Below are positions 47,623 through 49,126 of a DNA stretch of 64,000 bases, one piece after another. How positions within the stretch are numbered: position 1 is the first letter of the stretch; each line of letters begins with the position of its first letter. The position numbers were made by a program, and so were the translations under genes. The DNA is from Roseovarius lutimaris (GTDB lineage: Bacteria; Pseudomonadota; Alphaproteobacteria; Rhodobacterales; Rhodobacteraceae): NCBI RefSeq assembly GCF_900115165.1, contig NZ_FOVP01000002.1, positions 62,001 to 126,000 on the forward strand, given 5' to 3'. The notes beneath the pieces are model-generated. The model ran no database searches and was not told where the DNA came from. It saw nothing but the letters and a program-made list of their open reading frames with translations.

Positions 47623-48327
47623 TCAGATGACCCGGATCACGTCCTTGTCGATCGCAAGCATGTAACCGCGTCGCGCGATATTCTTGACCAGAAGTTCGCT
47701 CACAAGCTGATTTCCCAAGGTGTCGCGCAGGCGCTTGATCCGGGTGGCGCCGGCCGCTTCTTCGCAATCGGATGCGTTGCGGCCCGAAATCACGCCCTCA
47801 ATCTCGGCCCCGGTCATGACATCGTCATCCATCCGCGCCTCGGCCAGAACCGACAGGGTTTCCATCGCCGCATCGGTTAGCTTGAAACCCATATTGTTGA
47901 GATACACGGTTTTCTCGTCGCGGCTTATCAAGAGTGAACTTACCTGAATGCCAGAGCGTTCAATCTGGGCCATGCGGCGATTGAGGGTGATCAGCATCAC
48001 CAGAAATACAAGCGCCGAAACCAAAAGAGCGGTGGCAAAGACCAACAGAACGAAGATCACCATACGGTAACTTGTCAGGGTTTCGGAAAATGCCGTGCCC
48101 GAGAGGGCGAGAATTTCCAGAAGCTTGATATCGGTCCGCGCCGTCAGCGCATCGTTTTCCACAAATATCCGCTCGACCCGCGCGTTGAACGCATTGGCGT
48201 CCGGCAGGTTGAGAAACAGGAACACCGCCGCGATCGTCAGGATCGCAACGATGGCCACGACGCCAAGAACCACAACACGGTTGCCCGAGCGCCGCGCATC
48301 GGCGGCTGTACCGATCAATCCCCGCAC
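47623..48327 (-). CDS. Membrane-anchored winged-helix (OmpR/PhoB-type) regulator-like protein
   Basis: A 234-residue protein I cannot name. Two strongly hydrophobic helices (about 18-40 and 88-114) flank a periplasmic loop of about 47 residues. The C-terminal half (about 125-234) resembles an OmpR/PhoB-type winged helix: FKLTDAAMETLSVLAEAR, then GATRIKRLRDTLGNQL and NIARRGYMLAID, as in hIkrLR..l....GYrl. It therefore looks like a membrane-bound transcription factor with the DNA-binding domain after the membrane segments, the reverse of ToxR. The GTG start has AGGAG six bases upstream. It follows a small secreted-protein gene by 24 nt. Confidence 0.7.
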   Translation of the reverse strand: MRGLIGTAADARRSGNRVVVLGVVAIVAILTIAAVFLFLNLPDANAFNARVERIFVENDALTARTDIKLLEILALSGTAFSETLTSYRMVIFVLLVFATALLVSALVFLVMLITLNRRMAQIERSGIQVSSLLISRDEKTVYLNNMGFKLTDAAMETLSVLAEARMDDDVMTGAEIEGVISGRNASDCEEAAGATRIKRLRDTLGNQLVSELLVKNIARRGYMLAIDKDVIRVI

Positions 48328-48351
48328 GCGGATCTCCTTTGTATACCCAAC

Positions 48352-48585
48352 CTACTTTTCCTTCTTCGACAGCACCTTGAGAAGCTTAAGCCCCTTGCGC
48401 GCCAATTTTGCGCGCAACGCCGCCTCCGCAGAAGGGCAGGGCGCGTTGACGGTGGTAACATCATAAAAAAGCTCAAGCGGCTTGTCGCGCTTGGCCTTGT
48501 ATTCAATCTGACAGGCGGCCTGCGCGCCGGTGGCGGCGAGGCTCAGGCCAAGAGCCATAAGAATTATCTGTGCGATGTGTTTCAT
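48352..48585 (-). CDS. Small secreted protein with two cysteines, unknown function
   Basis: A 77-residue protein of unknown function. A signal peptide (about 1-23, ending ATGAQAA) leaves a mature part of about 54 residues. It has one Cys right after the cleavage site and another in VNAPCPSAEA, able to form one disulfide, and a very basic C-terminus (KLARKGLKLLKVLSKKEK). It is first in a two-gene operon with the membrane winged-helix protein, so it may be a partner or ligand of its periplasmic loop; that is inference. Confidence 0.65.
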   Translation of the reverse strand: MKHIAQIILMALGLSLAATGAQAACQIEYKAKRDKPLELFYDVTTVNAPCPSAEAALRAKLARKGLKLLKVLSKKEK

Positions 48586-48618
48586 GCGGGCAAGATGCGC
48601 CGAACCCCACGGCTATTC

Positions 48619-48689
48619 AATAACCTGTGACGTGAAATGAACCGAAGACAGGCTGTTATCTGATAACATCGGGGCGTTATTGCCTGTCT
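48619..48689. promoter_or_regulatory. Nested inverted repeats with four GTTAT/ATAAC half-sites
   Basis: A perfect dyad TGTTATC-T-GATAACA (48654-48668) lies inside a larger 8-bp inverted repeat AGACAGGC/GCCTGTCT (48646-48653 and 48682-48689). The half-site ATAAC/GTTAT occurs at 48620, 48655, 48663 and 48676. It lies in the region shared by the winged-helix operon (-) and the basic exported protein (+), so it is a good candidate operator. Confidence 0.55.
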
Positions 48690-48781: not shown

Positions 48782-49126
48782 ATGCACCGCAAGTTTATCG
48801 CAATCGTCCTGGGCGCCGCCCTTGCCGTTACGGGCCTGAGCACCACTCCAGTGCGCGCACAGGATCGCGGCGAGACCGCCGCCATCATCGCAGGCGTGGC
48901 CGCCCTTGCCATCATCGGCGCCGCCGCTGCCAGTGACCGCAAACATGACCGTCGCAAGGATTACGTCACACGCGGACATGGCCATAATTACGGACACCAG
49001 AATCGCCGCTACAAGCAAAAGCGTCATTACAAGCAAAAACGCTATAATCGCGGCCACCGCGCGCATCAGAATGGGAACCGGAACTCCCATCGCCATATCC
49101 AGCAACGGCGTCAACACGGAAGGTGA
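48782..49126 (+). CDS. Exported His/Arg/Tyr-rich basic protein, unknown function
   Basis: A 114-residue protein of unknown function. A signal peptide (about 1-26, ending PVRAQ) is followed by a small-residue hydrophobic stretch (AAIIAGVAALAIIGAAAA, about 32-49) that may be a second membrane or glycine-zipper-like helix. The last 60 residues are extremely basic and rich in His, Arg, Tyr, Asn and Gln, with a short tandem repeat YKQKR. The ATG at 48782 follows GAAAGGA. The tail could bind metal, nucleic acid or anionic envelope polymers. Confidence 0.65.
   Translation: MHRKFIAIVLGAALAVTGLSTTPVRAQDRGETAAIIAGVAALAIIGAAAASDRKHDRRKDYVTRGHGHNYGHQNRRYKQKRHYKQKRYNRGHRAHQNGNRNSHRHIQQRRQHGR

Follow-up and report, generated by a model that had tools for sequence, protein, structure and literature searches.

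The window, the whole stretch of 64,000 nucleotides analysed here, comes from a Roseovarius genome of 4.28 Mb and carries on its minus strand a pair of genes encoding a small exported protein with two Cys, hereafter the partner, and a predicted membrane protein with a DNA-binding fold, hereafter the regulator (Table 1). The partner gene lies upstream, separated from the regulator gene by a gap of 24 bp, and the regulator gene begins with a GTG codon that has AAGGAG 7 bp upstream of it. The pair is preceded by an operator made of two dyads and a half-site. On the far side of this operator lies a divergent gene for another small, basic and exported protein, which is a possible additional target of the same operator.

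Table 1. Features of the regulator locus, with positions counted along the window.
Feature	Position	Strand	Description and basis
Membrane regulator gene	47623..48327	minus	234 residues; open reading frame, orthologues and alignments
First membrane helix	48208..48273	minus	residues 19-40; hydropathy; predicted helix 8-40 in the AlphaFold2 model
Predicted periplasmic loop	48067..48207	minus	residues 41-87 (47 residues); hydropathy, model and conservation
Second membrane helix	47983..48066	minus	residues 88-115; hydropathy; within the long predicted helix 64-124
Predicted C-terminal OmpR/PhoB-type winged helix	47656..47937	minus	residues 131-224; Foldseek, and PF00486 in orthologues
Exported two-Cys partner gene	48352..48585	minus	77 residues; linkage, alignment and model
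Operator dyad 2	48612..48624		GCTATTCAATAAC; on the gene strand GTTATTGAATAGC
Operator dyad 1	48654..48668		TGTTATCTGATAACA
Third operator element, half-site	48676..48682		GTTATTG (CAATAAC); 8 bp further out than dyad 1
Divergent small exported basic protein	48785..49126	plus	tblastn match in 38/80 named loci

The regulator carries a net charge of +3 ahead of the first membrane helix, of -2 within the loop and of +2 beyond the second helix and, because the outer flanks of both helices are positive, both termini are predicted to be cytoplasmic and the loop periplasmic. The AlphaFold2 model, based on 59 orthologues, reaches a mean pLDDT of 74.4 and a pTM of 0.44, with 0 residues above 90. It contains helices at residues 8-40, 45-57 and 64-124, the last of which spans from the loop through the second membrane helix into the cytoplasm and is followed by strands and helices ordered as in the OmpR winged helix. 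The loop itself is helical in the model and comprises 47 residues, so it holds no large periplasmic sensor domain, while the lowest confidence is found between the second membrane helix and the winged helix (block 121-130, mean pLDDT 56). Foldseek matched the model to OmpR/PhoB-type DNA-binding domains, including those of GlnR, ArlR, YycF, PhoB, RstA, ToxR and CadC, with a probability of 1.00, a best E of 5.5e-4 and TM-scores, normalised to target length, of about 0.6-0.75 for isolated domains. A phmmer search of the regulator against PDB chains gave 0 matches. At the level of sequence families, PF00486 is matched weakly by the single regulator sequence (E 0.021, under Pfam's curated cut-off) and at E <= 0.01 by 51 of the 59 orthologues, the best at 1.4e-6, and no receiver-domain family occurs among the Pfam matches of these orthologues, whose N-terminus is the membrane segment.

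These results agree with the original prediction of a 234-residue protein having two membrane helices, a periplasmic loop of about 47 residues and an OmpR/PhoB-like winged helix at its C-terminus, the first two features being recovered by hydropathy and charges and the third by the predicted structure, Foldseek and the orthologue matches to PF00486. The charge rule also predicts the C-terminus to be inside rather than in the periplasm. A periplasmic C-terminus, considered as a candidate topology, was rejected, as the charge distribution opposes it and the predicted DNA-binding fold lies at that end. Membrane helices and a DNA-binding domain are thus predicted to be combined in a single chain. 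Mean column conservation is 0.81 in the winged helix, 0.80 in the loop, 0.77 in the linker and 0.62 in the first membrane helix, and it is highest among the stretches measured in the recognition helix, at 0.94; the loop is conserved to the same degree as the DNA-binding domain.

The regulator is present in 34/36 genomes of the genus set (Roseovarius), in 233/295 Rhodobacteraceae genomes (232/294 genera) and in 179 of the 196 near-complete genomes from the order sample, all 196 of which belong to the Rhodobacteraceae, with one copy per listed genome. In the class sample of 289 genomes, single-sequence and profile searches alike detected it in four, all of them Rhodobacteraceae, and in none outside this family. 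Identity to the 234-residue protein is 53-97% among the 58 aligned orthologues, and this recurrence across genus and family sets aside a chance finding. Among the 17 genomes of the order sample that lack the regulator, seven come from seven different genera and ten from one further genus, designated g48, in which it is missing from 10/10 sampled genomes and a single dyad-pattern match was found (G082). Genus g48 therefore represents a natural loss of the regulator that is usable for comparison.

The mature partner has 53 residues, a pI of 9.75 and two Cys (C25 and C50) that are invariant among 70 aligned members, in keeping with the small basic secreted protein with two Cys that had been proposed as the product of the upstream gene. 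The aligned members are about 76-104 residues long and share a YKAK-type motif after the first Cys. In 79/80 named loci (77 by tblastn and 2 more by motif), the partner lies directly upstream of the regulator, an adjacency on which its placement there by chance was rejected. When the start codon closest to the aligned N-terminus is used, 87 of the 142 distinct partner sequences overlap the regulator frame, 53 end 0-60 bp short of it, 1 ends further away and 1 is without a clear start. Divergent rnhB is found in 68/80 and ccrM in 66/80 named loci, and of the 12 named loci without a tblastn rnhB match, some of which end nearby, 11 retain the partner, which likewise speaks against a chance neighbourhood. 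The partner model shows a beta-beta-alpha-beta arrangement with a mean pLDDT of 82.3, for which Foldseek found no credible match in the PDB (best E 0.66). Pfam and NCBIfam searches with the partner alone identified no family, and a Pfam search with the 70 members returned scattered weak matches only, the best at E 0.015.

Dyads of the form GTTAT-N3-ATAAC occur ahead of the partner-regulator pair throughout the Rhodobacteraceae. From the partner outward, the operator is ordered as dyad 2 (GTTATTGAATAAC-like), dyad 1 (TGTTATCNGATAACA-like), which is the nearby dyad to which the original prediction had pointed, and the half-site; the 13-bp core of dyad 1 is the sole exact GTTATYNRATAAC in the genome of the window. 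Dyad 2 begins 39 or 40 bp ahead of the partner start in 100 of the 116 strict matches, and the distance from the half-site to dyad 1 is constant in 124/142 upstream regions, with spacers of 5-12 bp permitted. The distance between the two dyads falls into classes of 31-33 bp (48 pairs) and 42-43 bp (41 pairs), which differ by roughly one turn of the helix, a spacing to be expected where bound proteins touch. With its half-site and two dyads set at distances that are fixed or helically phased, the layout suggests co-operative binding.

Across the order sample, the three-element pattern was found in 108/196 genomes, corresponding to 108/179 with the regulator and 0/17 without it, against one control match. 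A looser dyad pattern was matched in 154/196 genomes, comprising 152/179 with and 2/17 without the regulator (Fisher p about 1e-9, in a comparison where a single genus supplies 10 of the 17 regulator-free genomes and where losing the operon trivially deletes its own operator), while its reversed control was matched in 13/196. The pattern occurs at two or more places in about 108/179 regulator genomes, so the association reaches beyond the operon's own promoter. Two observations count against it: the pattern has no match in 27/179 regulator genomes, and dyads are present in three genomes without a regulator match. These are G659, where one dyad, a palindromic one, occurs, and two fragmented assemblies of the genus set, G024 and G032, in which dyads are kept; they may be real exceptions or may reflect divergence or gaps in the assembly.

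The contexts of the sites were drawn from part of the listed matches, giving 111 site loci (108 distinct). Of these, 72 show the start of a recognised gene within 300 bp, 13 are loci of the operon itself and the other 26 lack a recognised target, some of them being located within genes. The gene start lies about 50-116 bp from the site at 66 of the 72 loci with a recognised gene, and nearly all of the recognised genes belong to exported or envelope families. Pfam assigns them to DUF5333 (25 loci, 12 genera), OmpA/glycine-zipper lipoproteins (12 loci, 4 genera), LolA (5 loci, 3 genera), CIA30 (4 loci, one genus), curlin (3 loci, one genus), murein transglycosylases of the SLT_2 family (2 loci, 2 genera) and BA14K (2 loci, 2 genera), in addition to LptA, RcnB-like, SH3 and peptidoglycan-binding proteins at 1 locus each. 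Under our own labels, these are joined by CATPQ lipoproteins (5 loci, 4 genera), TbpB-like lipoproteins (4 loci, one genus), znuA (4 loci, 3 genera) and porin-like genes (2 loci, one genus). Signal-peptide-like starts were called in 51/71 site-adjacent open reading frames vs 31/215 others at the same loci, a count that rests, like the gene calls, on home-made rules, omits 9 own and 4 znuA loci and retains one own-locus site (L362) and three duplicate sites.

The second three-element match in the genome of the window lies upstream of lolA. Since the spacing of the elements differs there, the 28-bp operator model is uninformative for lolA, and the dyads were scored with a 15-bp dyad model. The training set of this model was the operon's own promoters, where it reaches 98.6% by construction. 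With this model, a strong dyad precedes lolA in 19/34 regulator genomes (18/27 in the genus and 1/7 outside) vs 0/16 regulator-free genomes, in a test covering 50 of the 51 genomes in which lolA was found (G325 was left out). The background from shuffles is 0.8%; it is preferred to the "other windows" control, at 3.8% with the same threshold, which contains some reversed lolA upstream stretches. Because the regulator-free genomes belong to other genera, the lolA dyad amounts to strong conservation within the genus, and lolA-adjacent dyads in two further genera are single finds (L335 and L341).

The chief rival to the membrane regulator as reader of the dyads is Zur. GTTA-N5-TAAC is given, in the parts of a Caulobacter study drawn on here, as a motif conserved in the Zur sites of many proteobacteria (PMC4176598), and it fits the outline of the dyad, so that Zur, a soluble zinc regulator, or another soluble regulator could bind these sites while the membrane protein would be merely one of the targets, working elsewhere. 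Four sampled dyads do sit before znuA, and in some znuA promoters of regulator genomes a Y-type dyad is accompanied by an A-centred site; in L386, L396 and L398, the Y-type dyad and the A-centred, Zur-like site are about 30 bp apart, and cross-talk between them is possible. Moreover, the dyad model scores >= 8 in 11/11 znuA upstream regions with the regulator and in 8/12 without it (23 regions), and because of the latter, the model alone cannot separate Zur boxes from regulator dyads. Related sites in which the first GTTAT or GATAT is followed by an A occur in 11/11 znuA regions with and 6/12 without the regulator, a mid-site difference that is partial. A mark that may separate them is the Y-type pattern, which is nearly lost where the regulator is missing, both genome-wide and at lolA: all 17 regulator-free genomes have a znuA-like gene, yet just 2 of them have a Y-type dyad, and the strong dyad ahead of lolA is absent from every regulator-free region scored. 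The remaining dyad targets are not known zinc genes either, and we regard a soluble reader as unlikely.

We consider it probable, instead, that the regulator is a membrane-tethered one-component protein of reversed ToxR topology, which governs its own operon and an envelope regulon together with its periplasmic partner. As judged from sequence and model, the regulator would be held in the inner membrane by its two helices, with the short conserved helical loop facing the periplasm and the predicted OmpR/PhoB winged helix at the cytoplasmic C-terminus. The linkage of the genes suggests that the exported two-Cys partner probably acts on the loop as a sensor, co-factor or inhibitor, and the co-occurrence of dyads and regulator suggests that the winged helix probably binds the GTTAT-N3-ATAAC dyads from the membrane. 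OmpR-type domains usually bind direct repeats rather than dyads, which counts against this binding. If it takes place, it would control the operon itself, with the co-operativity suggested by the spacing of the elements, and, as predicted from the motif, a regulon including lolA, the OmpA/glycine-zipper lipoprotein, DUF5333 and murein transglycosylases. The signal would, at our guess, be the state of the envelope, and the regulator could either activate or repress these genes. The "compact envelope-sensing system" of the original prediction is supported, as the pair and many exported envelope genes have an operator in common, while sensing, DNA binding and contact with the partner stay at the level of prediction.

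A winged helix freed from the membrane by proteolysis and acting in the cytoplasm, like other membrane-bound factors, would keep the same regulon and differ in delivery alone. The low model confidence of block 121-130 resembles that of a flexible linker, but the linker is well conserved, and we hold this route to be improbable. That the winged helix is degenerate, no longer binds DNA and acts as a membrane adaptor would fit the single-sequence Pfam score under the curated cut-off, but is very improbable given the conservation of the recognition helix and a dyad presence that tracks the regulator gene.

The membrane-tethered arrangement that we favour resembles several known systems. ToxR-type and co-component systems combine an N-terminal winged helix with a periplasmic partner encoded next door, as set out in parts of PMC9214523. 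ToxR and CadC, both among the Foldseek matches, likewise unite an OmpR-type winged helix and a membrane anchor in one chain, with the winged helix at the N-terminus, a single membrane helix and a periplasmic domain that is large (parts of PMC9214523), whereas the winged helix of the regulator is C-terminal, behind two helices and the loop; with residues 131-224 preceded by two hydrophobic stretches, the predictions bear out the reversed topology originally claimed. In co-component systems, the periplasmic partner comes from a neighbouring gene, and the genes often overlap (parts of PMC9214523). VtrA/VtrC and ToxR/ToxS follow the same plan of a membrane regulator with an adjacent partner gene, to which the adjacency and overlap counted above correspond, but here the partner gene comes first and the topology of the regulator is reversed. 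The lipocalin-like partner of co-component systems is not matched by the 77-residue beta-beta-alpha-beta model.

OmpR/PhoB response regulators have an N-terminal receiver domain, in place of which the membrane regulator has its membrane segment. TfoS and ChiS carry a C-terminal DNA-binding domain, of other domain types, and to our knowledge neither contains an OmpR-type winged helix. Like the proposed regulator, they control genes from the membrane, according to parts of PMC11856585. Envelope control through an OmpR-family regulator is described, in parts of PMC9275681, for CenKR of Rhodobacter sphaeroides, which belongs to the same bacterial family as the present regulator, but CenKR is a pair of kinase and response regulator, and the CenR sites given there are unlike the GTTAT-N3-ATAAC dyad. 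The regulator architecture is not described in the parts considered of a survey of transmembrane regulators (PMC10269533) and of a Vibrio paper (PMC11856585), and literature searches on such a protein and on membrane regulators of envelope genes yielded no description of it, as judged by title or the start of the abstract.

It is conceivable, and we suggest it tentatively, that the regulator is the first member of a Rhodobacteraceae-wide envelope response, a reversed co-component system in which the two-Cys protein would report the state of the envelope to a membrane-held winged helix of the OmpR type, which would tune lipoprotein transport (lolA), outer-membrane lipoproteins and murein enzymes without leaving the membrane. 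If this is true, the Rhodobacteraceae, including marine roseobacters, would own a one-gene route from the periplasm to envelope genes without a kinase or sigma factor, and OmpR-type winged helices could be anchored to the membrane by either end. It would also provide a case of a membrane-fixed regulator serving several promoters scattered round the chromosome, a capacity that is called poorly understood in parts of PMC11856585. A testable role would thereby be offered for exported proteins that are still uncharacterised, among them the partner and DUF5333, the latter being a family for which a literature search returned 0 papers.

In eight of the site loci (L298, L299, L302, L308, L318, L319, L322 and L323), the exported DUF5333 gene lies beside sequences that look nuoF- and nuoG-like by eye, with the dyad about 60-116 bp ahead of it; in several loci, again by eye, it is placed between the two. 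In the genome of the window, the gene preceding lolA (L195, 749-1489) resembles, again by eye, a DMSP lyase of the dddL type. Sites near nadK- and acs-like sequences were seen in L226, L228, L229, L369, L375 and L376, some of these loci having a CIA30 gene and others a small protein, membrane-anchored or exported, that is encoded divergently.
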